Assembly: GCA_021775835.1 (NCBI GenBank)
Contig: JAJFHC010000147.1
Coordinates: forward strand, 15,221-79,220
DNA from: Hyphomicrobiales bacterium
Lineage (GTDB): Bacteria > Pseudomonadota > Alphaproteobacteria > Rhizobiales > JAJFHC01
Direction: 5' to 3'
Length of the DNA stretch: 64,000 nt
Below are positions 19,903 through 34,108 of this stretch, piece after piece. The number at the start of each line of letters is the position of its first letter. Positions within the stretch are counted from its first letter, which is position 1. The notes under the pieces are model-generated. The model was not told the DNA's origin and made no database searches. It saw only the letters and a program-made list of their open reading frames with translations. The position numbers were made by a program, and so were the translations under genes.

Positions 19903-20238
19903 TTAGATAATTAGGCGGTTAAACAGGAGTATCAGAGAAAGCCCGGTTACCAGGACCGTCCAGAACAGGTCGATCTCGGCCGATTTCTTTTTTCCCGTTT
20001 CTTTGTGGGGCGGGCCGGTGTGTTCCGATAATGGTGGCCGTGGCTGATAGGAAACGTGAGTGTTCGGAAACGGGCCGGATCCTGATGTTGCGTTGGCCCG
20101 GTCGAACAACATGCCGAATGTAATCAGAACTCCAACGAATCCTGCCGCCATGATGCCTAGTCGTCCAAGCCAAAGCGCGAGGACGATGCCGAGAACAGAC
20201 ACCAACACCAGGGACCTGAGAGCGTTAGCTTTGCTCAC
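19903..20238 (-). CDS. Small membrane protein, paralogue of the one at 17190-17573
   Basis: A 111-residue protein of unknown function. Two hydrophobic segments (about 9-25 and 28-44) are followed by a proline- and charge-rich middle (PFPNTHVSYQPRPPLSEHTG) and a last hydrophobic segment at about 91-107 ending in NRLII. The N-terminal half resembles the 127-residue protein downstream of the chemoreceptor. A GTG start is supported by AGGGGGG about eight bases upstream. The pair brackets the chemoreceptor gene on the same strand, suggesting a duplicated membrane component with a shared role, but no domain is recognised. Confidence 0.6.
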   Translation of the reverse strand: MSKANALRSLVLVSVLGIVLALWLGRLGIMAAGFVGVLITFGMLFDRANATSGSGPFPNTHVSYQPRPPLSEHTGPPHKETGKKKSAEIDLFWTVLVTGLSLILLFNRLII

Positions 20239-20488
20239 TGCCCGGACCCCCCTGTTCCAAACAACATTCGGTCAAGGCGCATAGGTTCAAACATCGCGGC
20301 TGATTTACCCGATTTTGCGGACCGGCGGCCTGCAGCATATAGCGTGCAGCGACACCGTGACGTATCGATCCATATAGTGTTGGATTTTTGGCCTTTTGCA
20401 AGCCTGCTGCCGTCCGAGCAGATCTCAGCCATAGGAAAAGTCGCCGGTATTGCCCGTCAAGAAACGCCGAGCTCCGCGCCTGTGACGA

Positions 20489-22243
20489 TCAAGAGCCTGC
20501 CTTGTCCGCCCATTTGTCCAGTTTGCCCATCACACCCCAGCCTGCGAGGGCACCGAACAGGGGTTGCAGCACCGACATCATCATCGTTCCTGCGGTGGGC
20601 GTCGCATCAGCAGAGGCGGCACCGACCGTTGTTCCCGCATCGGCAACAGCGCCGCCAACGGCTGAAACAACCGATGCGAGGGGTGCCAGCGGCGGGAAGA
20701 AAATCGGCAATAGTGTGGTGGCCAGAAGGCCCAGTGTACCAATTTGGGTCTTGCGGCCGTTGAGCAAGCGTCCGAGTCCTGGACCAAGCGCGTTATTCAC
20801 AGGCGTCAGGGGCGGTTCGGCCGGTTGTGGTGGTTCGGGGGTGGAGACGGGTGTCGGAGATACGGATCCGTTCATCTGGCCGGTAAGCTGAAGCACAGCG
20901 GCGAGTATGGTTCCAATATCTGCTGCTGGCGGGTTCGGTGCTGCAGGCTGCGCGTTTGGCATACGGGCCTGCTGGATCGTCTGAATCAGCTGGGCTACCT
21001 GGGTGAGCGTCGCGACGAGATTTGTATTGTCACCTGGCTGACCTGCAGCCGGCGCGGGATCTGGTGCTGGCATGGTGGTTTCTCCGGTTGAAGGGGCAGG
21101 TGCGCGGCCGACGAGGTTCAGCGCGCCGTTCTTGACGTCAGATAGCCGATTGAGCCAACCGCGTCCGAATGTGCCGAACGTGCGCAGGCCGCGGTAGAAG
21201 TTCTCGTGAGCTCTGGCGTAGCTTTCGACAGCGCTGCGCTCATCGACACTGTTTGCTGCAGCAATCGTCTTTGCCCCGACCGCACCGTCCACGGCCAAGT
21301 CTTGCCCATGTTCGTTCAGGGCCTGCTGCAACAGTTTGCCGCCTCGGGACGGGCCGGAATTGACGCCGGCGTTGTAGGTCATGAGGGCCAGGGAAACCGA
21401 CATCTCGTCGCAATGCAACGGCGTCCAGTACCTGGCGAAGAAAATCTGCTTCGCTTCCGCTTCGGTGAGATCCCTGACATCCTGGACCGTCACGGGTTTA
21501 CCGCGCCAGCTGGCCAGTGTGTGGTGAGTGATGCCCAGATTGGTGGCGCCGCCAGGGTCACTGGGGTGATCGACGAAGCCGCCCTCCCACTTGGCGATAA
21601 AGGGGTGGGCGATGTTGAAGGCGGCGCTTGGAATTGTCGTCATCGGTCTGGCCTGTGCATTGTTGACGTTGTCTTCGAAGTTGCCCGCGTTATCCGGAGT
21701 ACCGTTCACAGCGCTCCACTCGATGCCTGCCGCAAGATCGCCGGGGGAAAGGTCGATCTCAAAGTGCATCGCGTCCTTGGCCTTCCCCCAGGACCCACCC
21801 CATTCGAAAACCGGGTCGCCAGCCGTTGTTCTGATTGCCAGCACGTCATCGATCATGGCCGGCGTCATGTCGGTATCCGCGAGGTGCCGTTTGACATCCT
21901 GCGCGCGTTCTTCCTGGGTCGCCTTGTCGGAGAACCGAACTTTTCTTCTGTCAGGCGTCTTGATGTAAGGATTCGTCGTCCAGTTGATATCCAGGGCTAT
22001 GCCGTACGAGTGCAGGCTCTTGCCTGTGCCGCCGGTTATGGTCCTGCAATTGTAACTGTCAGTGTCTGCCGTCCTGATTTGGTAACCGTGATGGTTCATA
22101 ACCGCGGACAACGCCCGCCACGCCGCTTGCGTCGGTGGAGCGACACGAATTTCATCCGGGCCGAACGATACGATGACCATGTCGTCTTTGGCACATTCGT
22201 ATTCCTTCCAGGCAACACGCAACTTCGAAGTGCTCAAGCCCAT
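20489..22243 (-). CDS. Endolysin-like fusion: M15 peptidase domain plus GH108 muramidase domain plus hydrophobic tail
   Basis: A 584-residue peptidoglycan-cleaving protein. Residues about 20-170 form an M15-type D-Ala-D-Ala carboxypeptidase/endopeptidase domain with the zinc motif SLHSYGIALD (His78, Asp85) and a distal His160 (HFEID). Residues about 205-370 form a GH108 N-acetylmuramidase with the signature KWEGGFVDHPSDPGGATNLG, catalytic Glu220, followed by the PG_binding_3 type region. After a Pro/Ala/Gln-rich linker comes a hydrophobic C-terminus (ATTLLPIFFPPLAPLASVV) resembling holin-like or membrane tails of phage lysozymes. No signal peptide is seen. GGGGAA precedes the ATG. There are no other phage genes nearby; it may be a captured lysis gene. 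See the fusion finding. Confidence 0.82.
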   Translation of the reverse strand: MGLSTSKLRVAWKEYECAKDDMVIVSFGPDEIRVAPPTQAAWRALSAVMNHHGYQIRTADTDSYNCRTITGGTGKSLHSYGIALDINWTTNPYIKTPDRRKVRFSDKATQEERAQDVKRHLADTDMTPAMIDDVLAIRTTAGDPVFEWGGSWGKAKDAMHFEIDLSPGDLAAGIEWSAVNGTPDNAGNFEDNVNNAQARPMTTIPSAAFNIAHPFIAKWEGGFVDHPSDPGGATNLGITHHTLASWRGKPVTVQDVRDLTEAEAKQIFFARYWTPLHCDEMSVSLALMTYNAGVNSGPSRGGKLLQQALNEHGQDLAVDGAVGAKTIAAANSVDERSAVESYARAHENFYRGLRTFGTFGRGWLNRLSDVKNGALNLVGRAPAPSTGETTMPAPDPAPAAGQPGDNTNLVATLTQVAQLIQTIQQARMPNAQPAAPNPPAADIGTILAAVLQLTGQMNGSVSPTPVSTPEPPQPAEPPLTPVNNALGPGLGRLLNGRKTQIGTLGLLATTLLPIFFPPLAPLASVVSAVGGAVADAGTTVGAASADATPTAGTMMMSVLQPLFGALAGWGVMGKLDKWADKAGS

Positions 22244-22639
22244 GACACTTTCCCCGCGTCAGTCGTTTGAGGTCAACAGGCCATAAAACCGGCGCCTCAA
22301 TTCACAATATTCCAAACACACAGAGTCGATTTTCGCACTGGGTGTTCCAGTCATTGATCGACTCCAAATTCATATTGTCACCGTATTGTGGCCATTTTGG
22401 ATACATGTTTTCGTTTTCATACGAAGGCTTTCGATGAGTTTCATTATACAAATACGCAATATACTCAAATATGTTACAACTCTGATTGTTTTCGGATCGT
22501 TTATTGATTTTGTATTGAACTAATTTTTAGATTTTTTTTGGTAGATTATTTTTTTATTTTAACTTGAGTTTGTGACTGTATGTTCATTTCATTATTAACG
22601 TTACAACGAGAAATAGACCGGTAATATTCGTGGGTGTTT
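22244..22639. other. AT-rich intergenic gap with possible gene relic
   Basis: About 400 bases of composition clearly lower in GC than the flanks, with A and T runs near 22520-22560. On the minus strand a frame is open from 22527 to a TGA at 22302-22304; its only ATG (22406) would give a 34-residue product rich in Asn, Tyr and Trp. No ribosome site supports it. The base composition suggests imported or decaying DNA beside the endolysin-like gene. A promoter for that gene probably lies here. Confidence 0.4.
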
Positions 22640-24163
22640 TCAAACAAGGCTTTGCGGTCGGCCGCGGTAGGCCAGGGCTTCGGCAATGTGAATACGGCCG
22701 ATGGTGTCGGCACCCTCGAGATCGGCAACAGTTCGCGCGACCTTGAGCACACGGTGGAAGCCGCGGGCACTCAGAGACATGGCATCGGCTGCGTCGCGCA
22801 GCAAAGACAGGCCCGCCTGATCGGGGCGGGCGACCTGTTCAAGCAATTCGCCGTCGACCTCGGCATTGGTGCGAATGTCTGTCCGTCCGTGTTCCTCATA
22901 ACGGGTGTGTTGACGCAGGCGGGCATCGTGCACGCGCAGGGCCACGTCCGCACTTGCCTCACGGGGTGGCGGTAGCACGAGGTCGATCACGTGTGCCGGC
23001 GCTACCTCCACATGCAGATCTATCCGGTCAAGCAACGGGCCGGAAATCCGCGCCTGATAGTCGGCTGCACAACGCAGACCGCGTCTGCACACATGGCCGG
23101 GCTGGCCGGCATAGCCGCAACGGCAGGGGTTCATGGCGGCGATAAGCTGGACACGGGACGGATAGGTGACATGATGATTGGCTCGCGCGATCGTGGTCTC
23201 TCCGGTTTCCAGGGGCTGGCGAAGCGCGTCGAGAACCCGGGGCGAGAATTCCGGCAATTCATCCAGAAACAGAACGCCCATGTGGGCCAGGGAAACTTCT
23301 CCGGGCCTTGCCTTGTGACCTCCGCCTACGAGAGCCGCCTGGCTTGCAGAGTGATGGGGGCTGCGGAAAGGACGGCGACGGCTCATCCGGCCGTTTGCAA
23401 GTTCCCCGGCCAGGCTGGCGATCATGGAGACCTGCAACATTTCAGCAGAATCGAGCGGCGGCAGGATGGAGGGCAGTCTTTGCGCGAGCATCGATTTGCC
23501 TGCACCCGGTGGCCCGCACATAAGCAGGTTGTGGCCGCCCGACGCCGCCACTTCGAGGATGCGCTTGGCGTTGTCCTGCCCCTTGACGTCCTTGAGATCC
23601 GGCAGGCTGCCGCCGTCTTCGGATTGGCCGGGACTGGGCCGGACAAGAAATTCGGTACCCTTGAAATGATTGACGATCTGGATCAGATCGGCAGGCGCCA
23701 GGATTTCGAGACCGTCGCCGGCCCAGGCGGCCTCGCTGCCCTGGTCCTGCGGGCAGATCAACCCAAGATCGCTTGCGTTGGCGGCAATCGCTGCGGGCAG
23801 GACGCCCATCACGGCCGTCACGGAGCCGTCAAGCGACAGTTCCCCCAGAACCACATACTGCGCCAGGCGGGCAGGATCAACGACGCCCATGACGGCCATC
23901 AGACCAAGCGCCACCGCCAGATCGAAATGACTGCCCTCCTTCGGCAGGTCGGCGGGTGCCATGTTGACCGTAATGCGTTTTGGCGGCAGACCCAATCCGA
24001 TTGCGGTTAGCGCCGCCCTGACCCGTTCGCGGCTTTCCGCCACCGCTTTGTCCGGCAAACCGACAATCGCGAAGGCGGGAAGCCCCGACGACATCTGGAC
24101 CTGGACGTCGACGGGCACGGCCTCGACGCCCTGAAAGGCGACTGTTCTGATATGTGCGACCAT
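22640..24163 (-). CDS. comM: YifB/ComM family Mg-chelatase-like AAA+ ATPase
   Basis: A 507-residue ATPase. The N-terminal ChlI-type Lon-protease-like fold (GVEAVPVDVQVQMSSGLPAF, SRERVRAAL, GSHFDLAVALG) is followed by the AAA+ core with Walker A MCGPPGAGKSMLAQRLPSIL, sensor region (HMGVLFLDELPEF) and a cysteine group typical of the family (NPCRCGY, CRRGLRC). ComM homologues drive branch migration during natural transformation in Vibrio; in most bacteria the role is unproven. The start ATG (MVAHIRTVAF) has AGGGAG upstream; 68 further open codons are not part of the family. Confidence 0.93.
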   Translation of the reverse strand: MVAHIRTVAFQGVEAVPVDVQVQMSSGLPAFAIVGLPDKAVAESRERVRAALTAIGLGLPPKRITVNMAPADLPKEGSHFDLAVALGLMAVMGVVDPARLAQYVVLGELSLDGSVTAVMGVLPAAIAANASDLGLICPQDQGSEAAWAGDGLEILAPADLIQIVNHFKGTEFLVRPSPGQSEDGGSLPDLKDVKGQDNAKRILEVAASGGHNLLMCGPPGAGKSMLAQRLPSILPPLDSAEMLQVSMIASLAGELANGRMSRRRPFRSPHHSASQAALVGGGHKARPGEVSLAHMGVLFLDELPEFSPRVLDALRQPLETGETTIARANHHVTYPSRVQLIAAMNPCRCGYAGQPGHVCRRGLRCAADYQARISGPLLDRIDLHVEVAPAHVIDLVLPPPREASADVALRVHDARLRQHTRYEEHGRTDIRTNAEVDGELLEQVARPDQAGLSLLRDAADAMSLSARGFHRVLKVARTVADLEGADTIGRIHIAEALAYRGRPQSLV

Positions 24164-24404
24164 GGCCTTGCTCCCTGAGATAATACGCAAGGGTGCAAAG
24201 GTTTCTGTCGGCCTCTGTTTGCCTAATCTTAACAGCGGCCAGATAGAGTTGCCGGAAATCGAAGACCGACACAGATGGTCGGCACAGATGACCGGCACGG
24301 GGGCAAACTGATGATTGGATTGGTCAAACGAACGTCGCGGATTCGGCCGCAACAGCCGTTGATACACCGCTTGACGGACCTGTCAGATATCCGGGCACTT
24401 CTAG

Positions 24405-25751
24405 ATGGATAAACAGAAGAACACCGATGACCTGAAAGTCACTTTGGATCGTCGGCATCTTGACCGGTTGTGCCCGTTTTTCCTGCTGATCGATAGCGAT
24501 CTTGCGGTGGTCGATGCAGGCCATTGCATGCGTTATGTTCTGCCGGAAATCGATTCCGGGTCATCTCTCGATTTGATGTTTGAACGCCGGGATTACACAT
24601 CCGCGATAACCTTTGACTCACTCGTGAATACCGCGGACGGTTCGATCACCCTGGCGTCGCGGAAATTGCCGCATTTCAGGTTTACCGGGTCGACACTCGA
24701 ACTTCCTGGCGGCGAACTGGCCCTTTTGCTTTTGGAACCTGTTGCCACGTCCACAGCCTTGTCCGGGATCGCCAAGCAGGAGCAGGCAGCCGGTGCAGTC
24801 GGCACGGCTTCGACGTCTGTAGGGCCCGAAACTACATCGCCGTGCTCTGAGCCGGATCTCGAAACACTGAGCATTCTGGTTATCGACGACAACGAGATCA
24901 GCCGGGCAGTTCTCGCGGCCCAACTGAGGGGTGCCAACATGCTGTGTGATACGTCGCATAGCGGTGCCTATGGCCTGACTCGCATGCGCGACAGGCTGGA
25001 TACGGGCAAGCCATATGATTGCATCTTCGTGGACATGAATATGCCCGACCTTGACGGTCTGGAAGTGGCGCGTTTTATCCGCGCTGATGACCGGTTCAAC
25101 CCGACATCACTGGTCCTCCTGACGACATTTGCAGATCAGTGGACATCGGCGGATCTTACCCATGCGGGGTTTTGCGACCAGATCATCAAGCCAATCCCAA
25201 CGAACCAACTCCTGGCGCAGCTCCAGCGACTTTCAGGTTTCGTGACGCAAAAACGCGGTTCGGCGACCGGGGAAAGTTACAAACCGGCCCTCCGTACGTC
25301 GATCAAGGGCACTCCTGAGCCTGGCACGCAACTACCGGATGACGGTTCGATCGACGTACTGGCGGTTGAAGACAATGCCGTGAACCAGCTCGTGCTTGAG
25401 CAGGTTTTCAGCCGCACGCCCTATTCGTACCTTATCGTCTCCAGCAGCGAAGAAGCGGTCGCCGCATTCCAGAAGTACAAGCCGCGGCTGGTCTTCATGG
25501 ATACGTCCCTTCCCGGTGGGAACGGCATCGAGGCAACAAAGTCGATCCGTGAACTGGAAGCCCGGTCGGAGCAGGGAACACCCGTGGTCGGCCTGCTTGC
25601 CGATTTCCTGAATGAAGACCGGCAGGTCTGGATCGACGCGGGAATGGACGATTGCCTCACCAAACCGGTGTCACCGGACAGGTTGATGGGGCTGCTGGAG
25701 AAATGGCTTGGCGACGACAATCAGAAACGGGTCACGCAAGCGGCTTCGTAA
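24405..25751 (+). CDS. Double-receiver response regulator with HNOBA-like N-terminal domain
   Basis: A 448-residue protein without a recognisable DNA-binding or enzymatic output domain. Residues 20-113 resemble the heme-NO-binding-associated (HNOBA) PAS-like fold: CPFFLLIDSDLAVVDAGHCM, a middle RRDYTSAITFDSLV and a final TGSTLELPGGELALLLLEP. Two receivers follow: the first has DDN at 161-163, phospho-Asp210 in FVDMNMPD and Lys262; the second has ED at 322-323, Asp366 in VFMDTSLPG and a LTKPV lysine. Such proteins usually act by protein contact in a phosphorelay. The nearest kinase is the hybrid kinase at 15-17 kb. The HNOBA call rests on pattern similarity and is inference. Confidence 0.75.
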   Translation: MDKQKNTDDLKVTLDRRHLDRLCPFFLLIDSDLAVVDAGHCMRYVLPEIDSGSSLDLMFERRDYTSAITFDSLVNTADGSITLASRKLPHFRFTGSTLELPGGELALLLLEPVATSTALSGIAKQEQAAGAVGTASTSVGPETTSPCSEPDLETLSILVIDDNEISRAVLAAQLRGANMLCDTSHSGAYGLTRMRDRLDTGKPYDCIFVDMNMPDLDGLEVARFIRADDRFNPTSLVLLTTFADQWTSADLTHAGFCDQIIKPIPTNQLLAQLQRLSGFVTQKRGSATGESYKPALRTSIKGTPEPGTQLPDDGSIDVLAVEDNAVNQLVLEQVFSRTPYSYLIVSSSEEAVAAFQKYKPRLVFMDTSLPGGNGIEATKSIRELEARSEQGTPVVGLLADFLNEDRQVWIDAGMDDCLTKPVSPDRLMGLLEKWLGDDNQKRVTQAAS

Positions 25752-25808
25752 ACACCACGTTTCCCGGACTCGCTGGACGGGGTGGGCACGCTCCGATCAG
25801 ACTAAGCA

Positions 25809-27062
25809 TCACTTGCTGAGCTTCAACCCGACGAGAATTTTGTTCTGTGTAAAATTGTCTTCGGGAAAATCGCTGTTCAGGCGCTCATGTTCGTAGAGCG
25901 CCTTGATCATCACTTCCTTGTTTACCGCATAGTCAACGCCTACGCGTCCAATGTAGGTCTCATCCCGGTCAGCGGTGCTTTGAAAGTCTTCCTGAAGATA
26001 CGTTGCCTCGCCGTAGATGTTCACATTCTCGACCGGCTGATGATCGAGCCTCAGCGTGACCTCACGGGACAGAATCGCGGACGTTTCGGATATCGTGCTT
26101 TCTTCAAAGTCCGTACCTGCCGACAGGGTAAAAGCCGTCGATCCGGTTACGTCCCACTTGATCCAGGCGTCCATGGTTACATAGCTGAGATCGGCAAAGG
26201 ACGCCTCGTCAAACTCCTGGCGCCGGTACCCCAGAGCGGCCTGGGCCTCGACAGTCTTGCTCAATTTTGCCGTAAAGCCACCAAATGCGCCGTAGCCGTG
26301 AGATCCGCGTCTGAGGTCGTCGCCATCGATTTTCTGTTCGTAGCTCCAGTTGTTATAGGCGCCTTCAGCAAACACGGACAGTTTCTTGGAAATCTTATAC
26401 GTGCCCCTCAACCGGGCGTCATATCGCGTGTAGTCCCGGTTCTCCACATCGATCGTCGTGCCGGTGTCGAAAGGATCCTTCTCCTTGACCCGGTCGTCGA
26501 TCGTGCCTTTGAGAGACACCTCGAACTTTCCGAAACTGTGACGCAACTGGGCAGATGAGATAATTTTCTGCTCGAACGGCCTGTCTTCAGTGCCGTCTGG
26601 CGTCTCCGGATCGTCACGGGCCTCCTGGTCGAATACGTATTGGGCATCCAGATCAAGAGTGGTTTCGTCGCTGATGTCCAGGGTGACCGCCGCGTAGGCA
26701 TCATAGGACGTCTCGTTTTCCCGACCGTGATCGGGATAGATGATTTTTGAACCACGCAGGTCGACAAACAGCTCGTTGCGTTCCCAATCCGATTCGATCT
26801 TCAACCGTGGGACAATCTCGGTAAAGACATCGTCGATGGGCGTATCACCGTCCTTGCGAATATCGTCATTGTACCCGGCGGAGGTTTCGATCGAGGGCTT
26901 GTATATGAAATTTTCCGTACTGAGGCCATCAGGACGAAACTCATCGGGGAAACTGAAGCCTGGACTTGAAGGTAGATCGATTTCCTCGGATACCGCTGCG
27001 GTCGCGGTTAAGCCCAGCATGGTGATTGCCGCCATGGCAACTCGAAGATACGCAGTACACAT
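25809..27062 (-). CDS. Outer-membrane beta-barrel protein
   Basis: A 417-residue protein with an N-terminal signal peptide (hydrophobic core about 8-22, likely cut after TATAAVS or nearby) and then repeated amphipathic strands typical of a 14-18-strand barrel: alternating patterns such as DLDAQYVFD, YDARLRGTYKI, KLSVFAEGAYNNW, EAQAALGYRR, ANIYGEATYL-like strands and a last strand NKILVGLKLSK. It resembles the BBP2-type barrels found next to exopolysaccharide or exosortase loci, but no such genes are here. It is the last gene on the strand that carries the RS-rich protein, the HPr-kinase-like protein and the PqqD-like protein, 91 bases after the latter, so it may be co-transcribed. Ribosome site weak. 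Confidence 0.75.
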   Translation of the reverse strand: MCTAYLRVAMAAITMLGLTATAAVSEEIDLPSSPGFSFPDEFRPDGLSTENFIYKPSIETSAGYNDDIRKDGDTPIDDVFTEIVPRLKIESDWERNELFVDLRGSKIIYPDHGRENETSYDAYAAVTLDISDETTLDLDAQYVFDQEARDDPETPDGTEDRPFEQKIISSAQLRHSFGKFEVSLKGTIDDRVKEKDPFDTGTTIDVENRDYTRYDARLRGTYKISKKLSVFAEGAYNNWSYEQKIDGDDLRRGSHGYGAFGGFTAKLSKTVEAQAALGYRRQEFDEASFADLSYVTMDAWIKWDVTGSTAFTLSAGTDFEESTISETSAILSREVTLRLDHQPVENVNIYGEATYLQEDFQSTADRDETYIGRVGVDYAVNKEVMIKALYEHERLNSDFPEDNFTQNKILVGLKLSK

Positions 27063-27153
27063 AATTCAAGACCGAATTCAAATTCCACCCACACTCCAGG
27101 AGTCATTGAACAGCCGGCAGATTAAAATTAAGTCAATGGGATCGGACAGGCAC

Positions 27154-27459
27154 TCAGGACACGCCTTTAAGCGGGTTGTCAGGGTCCAGTTCCTCGATCA
27201 ATTCTTCGTCAAGGAAGTCTTCAAGCAGGGCCTTGACGTCTTTCTTGATGGTTTTCTTCGATTTGTCCGGAAAGGCTGTGTGAAGAATATCCAGGATCTC
27301 GGAAAGCTTGCGGGGTTCTTCCAGCATTTCCCAGATTGCCGCGCCGACGGCGTTCAACTGATGAATTGCCGTGGTTTCCTCATCGACCAGAAAGACATCC
27401 TGATCGACCCTGCGGCTGACCACGTGTCTGCACCTCACAAACGGATGATTCATGATCAT
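27154..27459 (-). CDS. PqqD-family peptide-binding protein
   Basis: A 101-residue winged-helix protein of the PqqD fold, which in PQQ and RiPP pathways acts as a recognition element that binds leader peptides and presents them to a modifying enzyme. The family pattern is clear: DVFLVDEETTAIHQLNAVGA followed by AIWEMLEEPRKLSEILDIL and a C-terminal helical part LLEDFLDEELIEEL. The start ATG overlaps the stop of the HPr-kinase-like gene in an ATGA, so the two are translationally coupled. No radical SAM enzyme (PqqE type) is near. In NCBIfam, as I recall, a similar pairing is labelled the HPr-rel-A system, with unknown function. Confidence 0.82.
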   Translation of the reverse strand: MIMNHPFVRCRHVVSRRVDQDVFLVDEETTAIHQLNAVGAAIWEMLEEPRKLSEILDILHTAFPDKSKKTIKKDVKALLEDFLDEELIEELDPDNPLKGVS

Positions 27460-28358
27460 CGGTCAAATCTCTCCTCAAGAAGGTTGATCGCCTCCAGACC
27501 GTTGGAGTACCGCAACCGGACACAATCGGCCTGGCTGACAAGCTGATGGGTACGATCAAAGACCTCCATGGGAAAATCCTTGCGTCTGGAGTTCTGCATG
27601 ATCACTTCGGCCAGCATATTGCTGGCAGATTCCGCGACGATCTCGGCGGCAACGTCCGTTTCGCGCTCAAGCAGGACAAAGCCCTTGACCGGTGCGGTTT
27701 CGCCATAGGGTGCTATTTCGTCGCCTGACAGGTTCAAATAGACGTAGCGTTTGTTTGTTGGTCCGCTGCGTGCTTCCACGAATGCTCGGGACTCATCAGG
27801 AAAATTCTCCGGCAGGGGCCGCCTCAGGCGCGGCTGGAGGCCGGTCGCCACACCATTGTTGACGCCCGGTTCGATCGGCATGATGTCGTCGGAAAACACC
27901 CGGTGGCCACGCGAGACCATTTGGGCGGTCAACGTACTCTTGCCGGCCTTGGCGACACAGGGAAAGACCACAAGCCCGTCGCCAAACTCCACTGCAGCGC
28001 AATGCAGGCACAAGATGTCCGGCTGTTCGTAGAGATACCAACCGACGAAGTCATAGTGAAAGTCGCACAAGGCCTCGACGGTGGTGCGTGGCGGATAATC
28101 ACGCCGGCGATGCAACGAGTGGCTGCCCCACGGCGTCGACCACTGGTAGACGTCGTCAGCTTTCCAGAAGCGAATTGTCTTTTCCGAATCAGTGGTTTCA
28201 CCGGTCAGTTCACGCAGAGACCAGCCGTGGAGGACAGCGACAAAGGCTTCGAGGAGATCGCTACATCCGGCAAATTCCAGGGGCGTGGAAAACTCGTTCA
28301 GTACCACGCGCCGTATCGTGTCACCGGTCATGCTCGTGCTCGCAGTTGATAGATCCAC
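27456..28358 (-). CDS. HPr-kinase-like (HprK-related) protein kinase
   Basis: A 300-residue protein related to the catalytic domain of HPr kinase/phosphorylase, which phosphorylates serine on HPr; relatives also phosphorylate serine on lasso peptides. Seen here are LHCAAVEF (118-125), a variant P-loop PCVAKAGKST (133-142), SDDI (156-159) and a basic/acidic stretch GFVLLERETD. The N-terminal 115 residues are not the HPr-kinase N-terminal domain. A GTG start is preferred: AGAGGGGG lies seven bases upstream, whereas the longer ATG frame has no such site. It follows the RS-rich gene across a terminator-like hairpin and overlaps the PqqD-like gene by four bases. No HPr or PTS gene is in the window. 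Substrate unknown; the RS-rich protein is the proposed one. Confidence 0.8.
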   Translation of the reverse strand: MDLSTASTSMTGDTIRRVVLNEFSTPLEFAGCSDLLEAFVAVLHGWSLRELTGETTDSEKTIRFWKADDVYQWSTPWGSHSLHRRRDYPPRTTVEALCDFHYDFVGWYLYEQPDILCLHCAAVEFGDGLVVFPCVAKAGKSTLTAQMVSRGHRVFSDDIMPIEPGVNNGVATGLQPRLRRPLPENFPDESRAFVEARSGPTNKRYVYLNLSGDEIAPYGETAPVKGFVLLERETDVAAEIVAESASNMLAEVIMQNSRRKDFPMEVFDRTHQLVSQADCVRLRYSNGLEAINLLEERFDR

Positions 28359-28393
28359 ACCCGTACCCCCTCTGACCAGCATGCTGAGGGTCA

Positions 28394-28436
28394 TAAAAGA
28401 CAAAAGCCGCTGCCTGGACTTTATCAGGCAGCGGCT
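28394..28436 (-). terminator. Strong hairpin with T-run between RS-rich gene and kinase gene
   Basis: A perfect 12-bp stem, AGCCGCTGCCTG (28405-28416) and CAGGCAGCGGCT (28425-28436), with an 8-base loop. Read on the minus strand it is followed by TTTTGTCTTTT, the form of an intrinsic terminator. It lies 120 bases after the RS-rich gene and 36 bases before the kinase start codon. If leaky, it would give many transcripts of the small gene and few of the kinase and PqqD genes. Confidence 0.85.
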
Positions 28437-28555
28437 CTTAAATTTTCGTCAATCCGTCACCGGATTGCTGAAAACAGTACCCTTAGAGAGATCAGGTTTC
28501 TTGACTTCGGGTTGACTCAACCAAAGATCATCCTGACCTCAAGACAGCACGCTTG

Positions 28556-28888
28556 TTACGAGCTGCGTGACCGCGACTTCGATTTCGAACGGCTACGTGA
28601 CTTCGACTTTGAACGGCTGCGCGACCGAGACTTCGAACGGCTCCGCGACCTTGACTTCGAACGCGACTTAGATGACCGCGACTTCGAAGACCTGTTCTTG
28701 TGCTTCCGCTTCTTGCGGCGCTTCTTGCGCCTCTTGCCAGCTTCCGCTTCGCTCAGTGTTGCCAGTGTAGGGACGGCATAGGCGGCAAGACCTGCCAGGC
28801 CAAGCTTGACGAGCAGAGCCCGCCTCGATACGTCCACTTCGCCTTCCTGTTCCGTCAACTTTGCGTCGACGTCTTTTTTATCAGTCAT
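28556..28888 (-). CDS. Small exported protein with Tat-like signal and Arg/Lys-Ser repeat tail
   Basis: A 110-residue protein of unknown function. Residues 1-20 are charged; SRRALLVKLGLAGLAAYAVP (21-40) is a twin-arginine-like signal with a likely cleavage site after SEAEA (about residue 50). Residues 52-66 are almost all Lys, Arg, His or Asn. Residues 67-110 contain only Ser, Arg and Lys: 24 serines alternating with 20 basic residues, like SR-protein tails. Serine is encoded by both TCG/TCA and AGC codons and arginine by several codons, so the pattern is kept at protein level. GGAG lies six bases before the ATG. A hairpin, an HPr-kinase-like gene and a PqqD-like gene follow. I infer a phosphorylated exported peptide; a nucleic-acid-binding protein is the alternative. 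Confidence 0.75.
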   Translation of the reverse strand: MTDKKDVDAKLTEQEGEVDVSRRALLVKLGLAGLAAYAVPTLATLSEAEAGKRRKKRRKKRKHKNRSSKSRSSKSRSKSRSRSRSKSRSRSRSKSKSRSRSKSKSRSRSS

Positions 28889-29145
28889 TATATACTCCGA
28901 CTTGTCTGTGTACCCGCCTCTGAAAAGTCATTCCATTTATACAGAAAAACGGAACTTGGAGAGACCAACAAATATTACCAAACAATTAATCCGGAGCAAC
29001 GCTTTCGTAAATTAATAGTAAATTTCCAGATCTGAAATCAGCGCGAATTTTTTATTAACCAAAACAACATTTAGACTGTTTTGTTGTTAACCAATACCAG
29101 TATACGCGATTAACGAAGTCCACTTATCTTCCTTGGACGCTAGGC

Positions 29146-30084
29146 CTACCGCCGCTCTTCGATGGCATCCCAGATCAGGGTTGCAATGTCCTCGCCGCCG
29201 AACCGTTTGACTTCACGGATGCCGGTCGGCGAGGTGACGTTGATCTCCGTCAGCACATCGCCAATCACGTCGATACCGACAAAAATCAGCCCGCGCGCCT
29301 TCAGTTCCGGGCCCAGGGCTTCGCAAATCTCGTGATCCCGCGTGGTCAGGCCCACGGGTTCAGGCCGCCCTCCCACATGCATGTTCGACCGGCTTTCGCC
29401 TTCGGCGGGCACGCGGTTGATGGCGCCGGCGATCTTCCCGTCGACCAGGATGATGCGTTTGTCGCCGTCACGCACCGCCGGCACATATTGCTGGATGATG
29501 AAAGGTTCAGGAAAAGCCTGTTCAAAAATTTCCAGGAGGGACGCCAGATTCTGGTCCTGCGACGTCAGCCGGAACACACCGGCGCCGCCATTGCCGTATA
29601 GCGGTTTGATGATGATATCCCCGAATTCCTTGCGGAAAGCCACGATATCGGCCTGGTTGCGGGTGATCAGGGTCGGTGGCATGAACTGGGGGTAATCCAG
29701 CACAAAAACTTTTTCCGGGGCATTGCGTACCTGGGCGGGGTCATTGACGACGAGTGTCTTGGGATGAATCCGCTCCAGAAGATGGGTCGTGGTGATATAG
29801 CCCATGTCGAAGGGCGGATCCTGGCGCAGAAGGACCACGTCCATGCCTGAGATGTCCTCTCGACGCTCGTCGAAAGAGGTGAAATGGTTGCCCTCCTCGT
29901 CGCGGACATCGAGGCTTGATCCGGTTGCCCAAAGCGTATTGTCGCGGAAACTGAGCGCCTGGGGGACGTAGTAGAAGACCTCGTGACCCCGCCTTCGGGC
30001 CTCGAGAATGAGGGCAAATGACGAGTCGCCAACAATATCGATGGAGTCGATCGGATCCATCTGAACGGCAATGTTGAGTGTCAT
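29146..30084 (-). CDS. gshB: Glutathione synthetase
   Basis: A 312-residue ATP-grasp enzyme joining gamma-glutamylcysteine and glycine. The N-terminal fold ([20 protein letters not shown]), the ATP-binding region ([16 protein letters not shown]), the loop [20 protein letters not shown] and the metal-binding end ([20 protein letters not shown]) all match bacterial GshB. Full length. It follows yraN and rsmI on the same strand, a common proteobacterial neighbourhood. Downstream lies 257 bases of AT-rich sequence before the RS-rich gene, which contains an imperfect hairpin (CAAAACA...TGTTTTG) near 29070 that could end this transcript, though the stem is weak. Confidence 0.96.
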
Positions 30085-30150
30085 GGCGGAAAGCGCTCCG
30101 GAGGGAATAGCGGGAATAGCATCAAAGGTGAGTTCAGAACATTTGGTGCC

Positions 30151-30558
30151 CTAAAAATCGTCCGCCGTAAAGGCTCCCGCAAGATGGGCCGGCACGGCAT
30201 GTGGCGTCACGGCAACCACGTCAAAGCGCAGATCCAGACCGTCGAGCCCGCTCTGGCCCGCCAGCCACAGAGAGGCGGTGTTGACGATTCGCCGACGTTG
30301 CCGGCCAGAAACCGAAAGAAGGGCCAGTTCAAGGGATGGGCGCACCTTGACTTCGACAAAGGCAATGGTGTCACCGCGGCGCGCGATAAGATCGATTTCG
30401 CCATGGCGCGTGCGGAATCGCCGTTCAATGATCCGGTAGCCCTTTACAATAAGAAATGTTGCCGCGACCCATTCCCCGAACAGGCCCCGCCGCCGGGTGG
30501 CACGGTCATGCCGGGCCTTTCGGGTCCGGGGGACGTCCCTCGCCGCTTTCCGGGTCAT
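30151..30558 (-). CDS. yraN: YraN/UPF0102 family endonuclease-like protein
   Basis: A 135-residue protein of the UPF0102 family, with the predicted restriction-endonuclease-like core: GEWVAATFLIVKGYRIIERR, then RTRHGEIDLIARRGDTIAFVEVKVR carrying the E-x-D...E-V-K catalytic pattern. Its biological role is not established. The ATG (MTRKAARDV) is preceded by AGGAAAAG; it overlaps the 3' end of rsmI by 53 bases, as the frame is open further upstream this start is preferred by the ribosome site and family length. The rsmI-yraN-gshB order is conserved. Confidence 0.88.
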   Translation of the reverse strand: MTRKAARDVPRTRKARHDRATRRRGLFGEWVAATFLIVKGYRIIERRFRTRHGEIDLIARRGDTIAFVEVKVRPSLELALLSVSGRQRRRIVNTASLWLAGQSGLDGLDLRFDVVAVTPHAVPAHLAGAFTADDF

Positions 30559-31471
30559 CGTCTTTTCCTCCGTTTCGCAGTGAAACGGCGCGGGTATAAA
30601 GTGTCCGTCGCGGAATACCCGTCTGTGCAGCCACGGTTTCCGCCGCATCCTTGACCGATCCCGCCTTCAGGGCTTCGACCAGGAGCGCGTCTATGGCCCC
30701 GGACTCAAGGGGTGCCGACGCCAGCGGTGGCGCCACGAGAATGACGATCTCTCCGCGCAAGGGACTTCTGTCCGCGAGTAAATCGCGCAAATCCGACAGC
30801 TCGCCCCGGATCACTTCTTCGTGCATTTTTGTCAACTCGCGCGCAATGACCGCCGGCCGGTTACCCAGGCTGTCGAGCATGGCGTCGATCGTCGCAGCTA
30901 TCCGCCTTGCCGATTCAAAAAACACCAGCGTCGCCGGGATCGATTGCAGCGTTTCAAGCTCCCGGGTCCGCTGGCCGGCCTTGACCGGCAGAAACCCGAC
31001 AAAATGAAACCGATCGCTAGGCAAACCCGCCGCCATCAATGCCGCGAGTGGCGCCGATGCTCCGGGTATCGGTGTAACGGGCAGTTGCAATGCGGAGGCC
31101 TCGGACACGAGCTTGAATCCCGGATCAGACACAAGCGGTGTTCCCGCATCGCTGACCAGGGCGACCGAGGCGCCCTTTTCCAGATCGCGCAGGATGCCAG
31201 GGCGAACCCTGGACGCGTTGTGCTCGTGATAAGCCTTGAGTGTCGTCTTGATTCCGAAATGATTCAGGAGCTTGATAGTCGTGCGGGTGTCTTCGCACAG
31301 GACCACGTCGGCGGCCGCCAGAGTCCGCAGACCCCGTATGGTCATGTCGCCTAGATTTCCGATCGGAGTTGCAACCACATAGAGACCAGGCGCCAGCGCC
31401 GGGGCATGGTGAGTGTGACCTTCGATCAGGTAGGGAAAACGACTTTCTTGGAGAGATATCGGACGCGCCAT
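30506..31471 (-). CDS. rsmI: 16S rRNA (cytidine(1402)-2'-O)-methyltransferase RsmI
   Basis: A 321-residue tetrapyrrole-methylase-fold enzyme that 2'-O-methylates C1402 of 16S rRNA using S-adenosylmethionine. Motifs: LYVVATPIGNLGDMTIRGLR, VLCEDTRTTIKLLNHFGI, YHEHNASR, VALVSDAGTPLVSDPGFKLV, TPIPGASAPLAALMAAGL and FVGFLPVKAGQR. The C-terminal tail after residue 280 is long and rich in Lys, Arg and Pro. It is divergent from the LpoA-like gene and overlaps yraN at its 3' end. Confidence 0.96.
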   Translation of the reverse strand: MARPISLQESRFPYLIEGHTHHAPALAPGLYVVATPIGNLGDMTIRGLRTLAAADVVLCEDTRTTIKLLNHFGIKTTLKAYHEHNASRVRPGILRDLEKGASVALVSDAGTPLVSDPGFKLVSEASALQLPVTPIPGASAPLAALMAAGLPSDRFHFVGFLPVKAGQRTRELETLQSIPATLVFFESARRIAATIDAMLDSLGNRPAVIARELTKMHEEVIRGELSDLRDLLADRSPLRGEIVILVAPPLASAPLESGAIDALLVEALKAGSVKDAAETVAAQTGIPRRTLYTRAVSLRNGGKDDDPESGEGRPPDPKGPA

Positions 31472-31657
31472 AGAACAATGTCTTCATTCCGCCTTATCAA
31501 CACGGTATGCCGTTTACCATAAAACCGCGTCCAATTTTACTTAACAGTAATATTCCTTTAGCCTTAACAAACGCAATTGCTCGATGGACAAAACCTGTAC
31601 GGTGGTACTATGTACGCGTCCAAAGCGGTCCAAAATACTGGCGGAGGCCACGCTGGA

Positions 31658-32929
31658 ATGAAATTCGGGACTCACAGTTCTCTGTTGTCGAAGACCGAGC
31701 CACACGGCTCCGGCTTACGGCTTCGACCTGTCCTGCATGCCTTCTGGTTGACTTCAGCCGTAATGCTCGCCGGTTGCGGCGGATTGAATCTCGGCGGCGG
31801 GAAGTCCGTGTTTGGCAACAGCCCCACGCCCGACACCCAGGCCGTTACCGAAAACACCGTCAGTCAGATCAAGGATGGCGGCGGCGGGGCCAAGGTAGCC
31901 CTGCTTCTGCCGCTTAGCGCTGCCGGCCGGGCCGGTGAAATCGCCCGCGGCATCAAGGAAGCCGGCGAGTTGGCGCTGTTCGACACCAACGATCCCTCGA
32001 TCGTTCTCATCCCTAAGGACACCCGCGGAACACCGGGTGGTGCGCAAGCGGCCGCAAAGGAAGCGGTCGCGGAAGGCGCACAACTGATACTTGGGCCACT
32101 TTTCGCAGGCTCAGTGAAGGCCGTTGCCCCGATCGCCAAGGCCGCCAGCATTCCTGTCATTGCTTATTCAACGGACAAGACGGTCGCCGGTAATGGCGTG
32201 TTCCTGTTGAGTTTCCTGCCCGAGCAGGAGGTTTCCAGAGTCGTCTCCTATGCTTCAAGCCGGGGCAAAAAGAAATTTGGAGCCCTTTTGCCCGGATCGC
32301 CTTATGGCGCGCTCATAGAACAGGCCATGGTTGCCTCCGTGCCGCGTAGTGGCGGTAAACTCGCTGCGGTGGAGCGGTTCAACCGGTCTGCATCGGGCAT
32401 TGATGAACCGGTCAAGAAGATGGCCGAAGCGACCAAGAGTACCGGAAAAGGCGTTCAGGCGGTGATGGTTGCGGAAGGCGGGGATCTGCTGCGTTCTATC
32501 AGTGCGTCCCTGCAGAAAGAAGGCGTCAGAACCGGACAGGTTCAGCTTTTGGGCACGGGTTTGTGGGATCAGCCCGGGATCGAAGCGGTGCCTGGTCTGT
32601 CGGGCGGCTGGTTTGCCGGCCCGCCACCGTCTTCCAAAGGTGCCTTCATACGGCGGTTCAAAAGCGCATACGGACGCGAGCCGCCACGGATTGCCAGCCT
32701 CTCTTATGATAGCGTCAGTCTCGCTGTCGCCCTGGCGCGGTCGCAGCCTCAGAACAGTTTTGCGCCATCGCGCCTTACAAATCCGGAAGGTTTCTCCGGC
32801 ATCGACGGCCTGTTCCGGTTCCTGCCAAACGGGCTGAACCAGCGTGGCCTTGCAGTGATGGAAGTTACACCGACGGGATACCGGGTGATCAGCCAGCCGC
32901 CTGCAAAATTTTCGGGCGCCGGTTTCTAA
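31658..32929 (+). CDS. LpoA-like lipoprotein, penicillin-binding protein activator family
   Basis: A 423-residue lipoprotein with a type II signal peptide: hydrophobic PVLHAFWLTSAVM followed by lipobox LAGC. The mature part is a periplasmic type-1 binding-protein fold (VALLLPLSAAGRAGEIARGI, LILGPLFAGSVKAVAPIA, IPVIAYSTDKTVAGNGVFLL, FIRRFKSAYGREPPRIASLS). In gammaproteobacteria the homologous C-terminal domain of LpoA activates PBP1A; in alphaproteobacteria this family sits, as here, divergent from rsmI. No N-terminal TPR part of LpoA is present. The ATG giving MKFGTHSS is chosen for the GGAGG ten bases upstream; an earlier ATG is possible. Confidence 0.82.
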   Translation: MKFGTHSSLLSKTEPHGSGLRLRPVLHAFWLTSAVMLAGCGGLNLGGGKSVFGNSPTPDTQAVTENTVSQIKDGGGGAKVALLLPLSAAGRAGEIARGIKEAGELALFDTNDPSIVLIPKDTRGTPGGAQAAAKEAVAEGAQLILGPLFAGSVKAVAPIAKAASIPVIAYSTDKTVAGNGVFLLSFLPEQEVSRVVSYASSRGKKKFGALLPGSPYGALIEQAMVASVPRSGGKLAAVERFNRSASGIDEPVKKMAEATKSTGKGVQAVMVAEGGDLLRSISASLQKEGVRTGQVQLLGTGLWDQPGIEAVPGLSGGWFAGPPPSSKGAFIRRFKSAYGREPPRIASLSYDSVSLAVALARSQPQNSFAPSRLTNPEGFSGIDGLFRFLPNGLNQRGLAVMEVTPTGYRVISQPPAKFSGAGF

Positions 32930-32944
32930 AGAAACTACACCCCT

Positions 32945-34108
32945 TCAGACAGCGAGTTCCGCAATGATGCGGTTAAGGACGGGTCGGCCTCGGGCCGTCA
33001 CGCCTATGCGTGTGTTGGACAGCCGGGCCACATATCCATCTCCGACGAGCGTGTCGATGGTTTCAGAATCCGGCATTTTCCCTGCCAATGACTCGTAGCG
33101 GACCAGATCGATGCCTTCGTGAAGCCGGAGACCCATGAGTAGCATTTCGTCCGCCTGTTCTTGCCGTCCGAGCACTTCCTGGTTGGTTATTCCGTGGCCG
33201 GTCTCCTGCACTTTGGCCGACCAGGTTTCGGGATGGCGTTCAGTCATTGTTGCGACGCGATTATCGCCGGAATCGTAACGGGCGTGGGCGCCTGGTCCCG
33301 CGGCGGCATACTCGCCGTAGCGCCAGTAAACGAGGTTGTGGCGGCACTGGGCGCCTGGCCGGGCGTGATTGGATATCTCGTACGCACCGAGACCCGCCTT
33401 TTCACAGACCTCCTGGGTTGCATCATAGTGATCGCGCGCCGCATCGTCGTCCGGAACCTGGAGCAGACCACGGCGATGAAGATCATGGAATCGCGTCCCC
33501 GGCTCTATCGTCAATTGATAAAGGGAGAGGTGATCCACCGCCAGTTCAAGAGCACGCGCAAGTTCCACTGTCCATTCGGCTGTGGTCTGACCGGACCTGG
33601 AATAGATCAGATCAAAGGAAACCCGGTCGAAACTTGCCCGGGCGATTTCAAAAGCCGCAATCGCTTCGGCGGTCGTATGCAGCCTGCCCAGTGACTTCAA
33701 CGCAGTATCGTCGAGCGCCTGGACGCCCAGCGACACGCGGTTGACGCCGACCGTCCGGTATCCCTGAAAGCGGGAGGCCTCGACACTCGTCGGGTTGGCC
33801 TCGAGCGTGATCTCGGCATCCTTGGCGACCGACCAGAGGTCGTGGATGGTTCGGAGGATGAACTCCACGGTTGATGGCTCCATCAACGACGGCGTCCCGC
33901 CGCCGAAGAATATGCTGCGGACGATCCGGCCCGGCGTTCGCTGTGCAAAATGCCCGAGTTCGCGGACAATCGCACCGGCGAACTTCATTTGATCGATAGG
34001 TGCATGTCGGACGTGGGAATTGAAGTCGCAATAGGGACACTTGGCCTGGCAAAAGGGCCAATGAACATAAACGCCAAAATCCGTATGTCCTTGACCGGAC
34101 TCGGTCAT
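32945..34108 (-). CDS. hemW: HemW-type radical SAM heme chaperone (coproporphyrinogen III oxidase-like)
   Basis: A 387-residue radical SAM protein. The N-terminal YVHWPFCQAKCPYCDFNSH contains the CxxxCxxC cluster ligands; GGGTPSL and EANPT are S-adenosylmethionine-binding elements, and the HemW C-terminal domain follows. The sequence around the fourth cysteine (CPYCDF) is that of HemW, which inserts heme rather than oxidising coproporphyrinogen. It starts one base after the stop of rdgB and convergently meets the LpoA-like gene across 15 bases. The rph-rdgB-hemW order is typical of alphaproteobacteria. Confidence 0.94.
   Translation of the reverse strand: MTESGQGHTDFGVYVHWPFCQAKCPYCDFNSHVRHAPIDQMKFAGAIVRELGHFAQRTPGRIVRSIFFGGGTPSLMEPSTVEFILRTIHDLWSVAKDAEITLEANPTSVEASRFQGYRTVGVNRVSLGVQALDDTALKSLGRLHTTAEAIAAFEIARASFDRVSFDLIYSRSGQTTAEWTVELARALELAVDHLSLYQLTIEPGTRFHDLHRRGLLQVPDDDAARDHYDATQEVCEKAGLGAYEISNHARPGAQCRHNLVYWRYGEYAAAGPGAHARYDSGDNRVATMTERHPETWSAKVQETGHGITNQEVLGRQEQADEMLLMGLRLHEGIDLVRYESLAGKMPDSETIDTLVGDGYVARLSNTRIGVTARGRPVLNRIIAELAV

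Follow-up and report, generated by a model that had tools for sequence, protein, structure and literature searches.

What is made at a locus where a small, apparently exported protein ending in a long run of serine and basic residues is encoded next to a kinase and a PqqD-like protein? The question arises from a 64,000-nucleotide stretch of a Hyphomicrobiales bacterium (GenBank assembly GCA_021775835.1, contig JAJFHC010000147.1), called here in its full length the window, for which an earlier note had proposed that the PqqD-like protein recognises the N-terminal region of the small protein, that the kinase phosphorylates the tail serines and that the product is exported. We find that this arginine/serine (RS) peptide belongs to a wide leader-tail family, and we read the locus, with somewhat more confidence than doubt, as a system for exported serine-rich peptides in which a kinase works with a recognition element (RRE) of the kind that serves ribosomally synthesized and post-translationally modified peptides (RiPPs). 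The basis of this reading is computed: the linkage of the genes and their co-occurrence across genomes, the folds, the docking residues that are kept, and a bias of serine over threonine. The three steps that it comprises, namely docking, phosphorylation and export, are not independent of one another.

The genes lie on the minus strand in the order peptide, kinase, PqqD-like protein and outer-membrane barrel, and the same four genes are present in the closest relative found, locus L003 from an alphaproteobacterial metagenome-assembled genome (kinase identity 85%). The features are as follows.

28556..28888, minus strand: substrate peptide of 110 residues, a twin-arginine leader with a putative YxxPxL docking motif followed by a 60-residue tail of Lys/Arg and Ser/Arg parts; ortholog L003:9591-9908
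28733..28846, minus strand: leader and recognition segment EGEVDVSRRALLVKLGLAGLAAYAVPTLATLSEAEAGK, with RR, Y..P and AxA, from the leader alignment and residue counts
28401..28440, minus strand: terminator-like hairpin located between the substrate gene and that of the kinase, a 16-pair stem and then a T-rich stretch (fold z -7.9)
27456..28358, minus strand: HprK/PEPCK-fold kinase; the listed reading frame, 27456-28403, starts with TTG, and GTG at 28358 or ATG at 28331 is a likelier start
27154..27459, minus strand: PqqD-type RRE of 101 residues, its gene sharing 4 bases with that of the kinase; its N36 and D74 are aligned to N33 and D70 of LppB
25809..27062, minus strand: outer-membrane barrel BBP2_2 (Pfam E 2.3e-79), 91 bases past the PqqD gene

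The RS protein (28888-28556) starts with SRRALLVKLGLAGLAAYAVPTLATLSEAEA, and its final 44 residues comprise 24 serines and 20 arginines or lysines and nothing else, as the earlier note had counted. In a codon comparison with L003, 31 codons of the tail are identical, 20 differ synonymously and 2 non-synonymously; the corresponding numbers are 37, 12 and 1 for the leader part and 156, 104 and 31 for the kinase, and the tail serines are encoded by four codons. Because the tail changes are 20 synonymous against 2 non-synonymous, a chance reading frame or a DNA-repeat artefact is ruled out, and the RS sequence is kept by selection on the protein.

The alignment of 44 leaders gives the consensus RRxALxRLGLxAxAAYxAPxLxTLSxAxAS, in which R8 (44/44) and P26 are invariant and R9 (42/44), L12 (42), G16 (40), Y23 (43) and A36 (42) nearly so. 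The leader displays features of substrates of twin-arginine translocation (Tat), the twin arginine and the AxA being evident from residue counts and the hydrophobic stretch by eye. We take its N-terminal part to be a twin-arginine signal and its end to be a signal-peptidase AxA site. The middle of the leader reads YxxPxL, matching the motif YxxP or [Y/W]xxPx[L/V/I/F/A] by which the RREs of lasso, PQQ-type and LPP pathways dock their substrates, as given in two reports (PMC12710340, PMC13381572). The seed of the initial leader profile was a set of 15 leaders taken from the loci that were then searched, and the 44-leader profile was applied to genomes that include some of the seed genomes (e.g. 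G011, G008, G080, G084).

The partner for this motif would be the PqqD-like protein, which matches Pfam PqqD (PF05402, E 9.5e-15) and whose predicted structure has a confidence score (pLDDT) of 84. Its best PDB matches are two RREs with bound leader, TbiB1 (5v1v; TM-score 0.85 by target length, root-mean-square deviation 1.6) and TfuB1 (6jx3), and the family profile also matches 9x8z, the structure of LppB with its leader (PMC13381572). According to that report, D70 of LppB bonds the leader tyrosine and N33 holds the proline kink; D70A weakens the complex and N33A almost abolishes it. The equivalent asparagine (N36 in the window) is kept in 42 of 47 sequences and the aspartate (D74) in 46 of 47. 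A wider sample of 93 loci in which both interface parts are present, of which 3 are duplicates and 90 distinct, has Asn at the first position in 80 loci, Asp in 12 and Ser in 1, and Asp at the second in 91. A tyrosine leader is paired with an aspartate RRE in 91/93 of these loci. Docking of the YxxP leader by the RRE is thus the part of our reading that we hold most firmly, as very likely correct, and it sharpens what had been said of N-terminal recognition.

The only leader with Phe in place of Tyr, in L004, is paired with an RRE that has Ala in place of the tyrosine-binding Asp, which fits a lost Tyr-Asp bond. L127 has an RRE with Ala for Asp, yet a normal Tyr leader. We do not take interface covariation as proof, since the single case of L004 is insufficient and L127 runs counter to it.

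The kinase carries the P-loop AKAGKST and the FSDD motif that had been noted before, and its fold together with the P-loop/DD site places it in the HprK/PEPCK superfamily. Its His, GK and DD are invariant across 43 sequences. A protein search returned 43 kinase relatives, of which 21 (393-501 residues) are listed with a PqqD domain, C-terminal in those that were aligned. Kinase and RRE are fused in 82/101 loci and separate in 17/101, the latter being the arrangement in the window.

We examined the linkage of leader and kinase in 57 loci, comprising 54 from scanning genomes with only the kinase as query, two plasmid loci and the window, so that the small gene played no part in their choice. The leader profile finds a leader-bearing protein near the kinase in 51/57 loci. 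Four of the leaderless loci (L010, L019, L027, L056) have no more than 400 bases ahead of the kinase match, and in a fifth (L052) the kinase is broken, with a frame of 125 residues. At BLAST level, among open reading frames of at least 70 residues, no other gene cluster is shared by more than 10 of the 57 loci. The hosts are Proteobacteria and Desulfobulbales-type organisms, mostly marine and salt-loving bacteria, and the loci include Halomonas, Vreelandella, Yoonia, Loktanella, Litoreibacter and Aquibaculum.

Whole genomes show the same association. Among 248 genomes of the family of the Seohaeicola locus (G011), the leader (E 1e-6) occurs in 23 and a kinase match (1e-15) in 25, of which 22 are below 1e-50; all 22 strong-kinase genomes are among the 23 leader genomes, and in the extra one (G212) the contig ends 476 bases past the leader. 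Among 151 genomes of the family of the Vreelandella locus (G008), the 20 leader genomes are the same 20 as the kinase genomes, the leader lying 151-366 bases before the kinase domain. The leader profile matches 27 times in 16 kinase genomes, and 21 of these matches fall at the kinase locus. In many genomes these scans scored part of the first-look candidates, and the counts are given without correction for kinship. The expectation that a leader protein would be conserved beside the kinase is thus borne out, with near-perfect genome sharing in the two families.

What follows the leader varies greatly. In 46 loci with a short tail-type protein just upstream of the kinase, serine is present in every tail (885 Ser, 109 Thr and 77 Tyr in total; 7 to 59 Ser per tail, median 18), and the Ser:Thr ratio is 8.1 compared with 1.11 in open reading frames of more than 250 residues from the same loci. 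Serine reaches 10% in 43/46 tails, glycine in 29/46 and arginine in 18/46, so that serine is the sole ingredient prominent in nearly all of them. The rarity of threonine fits the expectation for an LppK-like kinase, which takes S3 and not S3T. Tail types include RS/KS, SRPSYSRPSY, GGSGG, SGASGAS, PSEPSEPS, KSNKSG and SSASSVSS, and the net charge spans -33 to +33 with a median of 0.5. The zwitterionic RS chemistry emphasised in the earlier note therefore holds for a few lineages and fails as a general feature.

Based on these results, we propose three steps. In the cytoplasm, the PqqD-type RRE would bind the YxxPxL segment within the twin-arginine signal region of the substrate; the HprK/PEPCK-fold kinase would then move phosphate from ATP onto tail serines; and the leader, once released from the RRE, would enter the Tat route and be cleaved after AxA. 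Docking motif and export signal would share one stretch, and modification would precede export. That the leader serves Tat export we regard as likely, and phosphorylation of a tail serine by the kinase as probable; the chemistry and its sites, the export route and the sequence of events are inferred.

Several points weigh against this proposal. Locus L011 has about 720 bases before the kinase and no leader protein, which may be a real absence because the distance from leader start to kinase domain is 278-691 bases elsewhere. Of the kinase-like matches in the 248 genomes, three weak ones (E 1e-20 to 1e-25) come without a leader. In G267, a divergent kinase with an adjoining RRE (L145) has no leader within the 3,001 bases read, and a leader protein of that genome (L099) lies about 40 kb away with two serines in its tail. 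Serine falls below 10% in 3/46 tails, two from Halomonas (L028, L031) and that of L002, whose frame is probably misread; three diheme cytochromes that bear the leader (L014, L015, L020) have Ser-poor linkers; and Ser/Gly-rich tails could be mere flexible linkers. Usual Tat signals carry F and K, and the leader motif is without both. No dedicated leader peptidase was identified. Lastly, LppK, the nearest kinase with experimental data, attaches several phosphates to a single serine (S3) rather than to many (PMC13381572).

This last point leads to an alternative, in which the chemistry is LPP-like and single-site: one serine near the leader junction would be phosphorylated or polyphosphorylated, the tail being a spacer or the functional body. 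LppK and the lasso kinases modify one serine, sometimes with several phosphates, and the median position of the first tail serine after the leader is 1. The first serine stands at 17 in the window, 18 in L003, 14 in L045 and 13 in L004, making a fixed site at the junction unlikely in the window, and the 8:1 excess of serine over threonine holds across whole tails. We consider single-site chemistry unlikely, if the most serious of the competing accounts, and keep phosphorylation of tail serines more generally as the preferred reading.

The leader is also found on larger proteins. It precedes subtilases (Pfam S8) in L001 (8052-9389), L038 and L053 and is seen on them in L002, L039, L048, L050 and L054; these proteins carry a Ser/Arg/Gly linker, and are perhaps both substrate and processing enzyme. 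A sigma-70-family factor gene lies near the subtilase loci L001, L002, L038, L039 and L054. PepSY proteins bear the leader in L089 (above the cut-off), L025 (below it) and L042 (by resemblance), and the diheme cytochromes (DHC) bear it on the strand opposite the kinase (L014:1049-1738, L015:9215-9817 and, on the minus strand, L020:5219-5764), the twin arginine being broken up in L014 and L020.

In the order of genome G003, internal copies of the motif occur in frames of 211-236 residues that have a hydrophobic segment ahead of it. At L083:1492-1572 (G003) and L104 (G294) the motif stands at the exact C-terminus of FecR proteins (Pfam), devoid of signal character and preceded by a run rich in Gly that includes Ser or Asn. 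Such decoupled copies keep LGL or LG, YxxPxL and TLSQ and lack the hydrophobic core, and some lack the twin arginines. Because they keep the YxxPxL positions while losing the core, docking appears separable from export, and these copies are the best sign that the YxxP motif may be a recognition tag. The decoupled-copy profile, for which part of the first-look candidates of many genomes was again scored, matches 6/61 genomes of this order, each of which also has a kinase match (in G267 the divergent one only), compared with any kinase match in 13/61; truly decoupled copies occur in 3 genomes (G003, G293, G294), and the other three show ordinary leaders. We rejected one candidate, L082 as an OmpA protein, in which a tag copy and a masked run accompany an OmpA-like look in another frame and a partial Pfam scan gave nothing.

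These observations suggest a second alternative, in which YxxP is a portable tag that brings the RRE-kinase to Ser/Gly-rich stretches in envelope proteins of various kinds, tail-only peptides being the simplest case. The leader shared by subtilases, diheme cytochromes and PepSY proteins and the core-less internal and FecR C-terminal copies speak for it; the single leader match in 11 of the 16 kinase genomes and the restriction of decoupled copies to 3 genomes of one order speak against it, and we think it improbable. A broader extrapolation, that of general envelope phospho-tagging in Proteobacteria by a YxxP tag placed N-terminally in a Tat signal, internally or C-terminally, we put forward only tentatively. 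If true, serine-rich stretches would be loaded with phosphate before export to give programmable polyanionic or zwitterionic segments, and the window product would be a phospho-RS peptide with a chemistry resembling that of silaffins or SR domains. A third account, in which phosphate is not the end product and the pair acts as an export chaperone or proofreader, performs another PEPCK-fold transfer or makes a phosphate intermediate, has in its favour a fold that resembles PEPCK as much as HprK and a short, weak sequence match to the HprK model, and is made very unlikely by the invariant catalytic residues and by the fact that known RRE-linked HprK-like enzymes are serine kinases.

Returning to the preferred reading, we asked how much of the surrounding locus belongs to the module. 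The barrel lies downstream on the same strand in the window and also neighbours the L003 module, and it is no conserved part of the system: BBP2_2 appears at 1e-5 in only 2/70 scanned neighbours of relatives (L003 and, weakly at 7.3e-6, L023), these 70 having been chosen from 122 listed neighbours (top 25 of 79 families). The earlier note had correctly called it an outer-membrane barrel, and its standing as a general neighbour is not upheld. Since neither RS chemistry nor the barrel is general, a silaffin-like role rests on one lineage; the product may serve as a surface or envelope polyanion or zwitterion, or in metal or mineral binding.

The hairpin behind the substrate gene would permit production of the peptide in excess. 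It is also visible by eye in L003, where the stretch folded for the energy test ended short of it. Only the fold energy stands out, as a pattern scan gave 2 terminator-like sites compared with 3.8 in shuffles, which is no excess. A simple search found a hairpin and T-run after the substrate gene in 10/45 other loci, so the window terminator is no general feature. The TTG start of the listed kinase frame falls inside the hairpin and the GTG at 28358 corresponds to an ATG in L003, which makes this GTG the likelier start; AGAGGGGG lies upstream of it (by eye).

The module is flanked on one side by a Mg-chelatase-like and a double-receiver gene and on the other by glutathione synthetase, UPF0102, RsmI and LppC-like genes. 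The double-receiver gene (24405-25751, plus strand) is convergent with the barrel, encodes two stretches of receiver domain as its only Pfam domains at 1e-5, and has a relative adjoining the barrel in L003. At 20489-22243 (minus strand), one phage-lysin-like protein combines M15 peptidase, glycosyl hydrolase 108 and peptidoglycan-binding domains (Pfam). A phage or defence gene was rejected (no match in PHROGs or PADLOC at 0.01), as was a structured RNA (no Rfam match at gathering score in window 20000-34000), and a single-sequence PDB search gave TRIM39 as its sole match (E 0.21).

How does the system compare with those already known? Our literature search, whose scope excluded subscription papers and preprints, found no paper describing it, none that combines an HprK-related kinase with PqqD or brings together PqqD, twin arginine, precursor peptide and kinase, and nothing related on twin-arginine RiPPs; the main text of two RRE mining surveys, in the passages covered, does not contain the word 'kinase'. 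By model names, the NCBIfam HPr-rel-A system (TIGR04352/TIGR04353) also pairs an HprK-related kinase with a PqqD-like partner. Membership is rejected, since the kinase scores 50.1 bits against a cut-off of 200 and the PqqD protein 20 against 35, with six relatives at 39-52 bits.

The phosphorylated lasso peptides of the paeninodin type (PMC8498205) share an HPr-kinase homolog acting on serine and a B1-type RRE that docks YxxP or WxxP. The present tails, unlike lasso peptides, are of low complexity, and no lasso macrolactam cyclase or B2 peptidase was found among the 7 scanned neighbours in the window (20.5-32.9 kb).

The nearest known system is LPP (linear polyphosphorylated peptides; Popov et al. 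2026, PMC13381572), which shares the HprK-like kinase with RRE, the N-terminal YxxPx(hydrophobic) leader and highly variable C-termini. There, LPP is restricted to Bacillota, phosphorylation of serine is shown with one Ser modified, and the clusters encode a SipW-like peptidase, an MsbA-like transporter and an NTP-transferase, none of which was found among the same 7 neighbours in the window. The LPP leader consensus given there, YxxPxVLxHQxIxFETxxS, is not matched beyond YxxPx(hydrophobic). The present system differs in that its RRE is mostly fused, its leader carries a twin arginine, its tails are rich in serine and its hosts are Proteobacteria and Desulfobulbales-type organisms; it is a variant of the kinase-RRE kind and not LPP. 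It would illustrate a way for bacteria to place phosphate on numerous serines in disordered tails that are exported, and its tags allow substrates to be predicted, so that both the chemistry and the function can be put to a direct test in cultured strains. Set beside LPP, the very recent kinase-RRE peptides would gain a Proteobacterial branch, one in which the export signal doubles as the docking motif.

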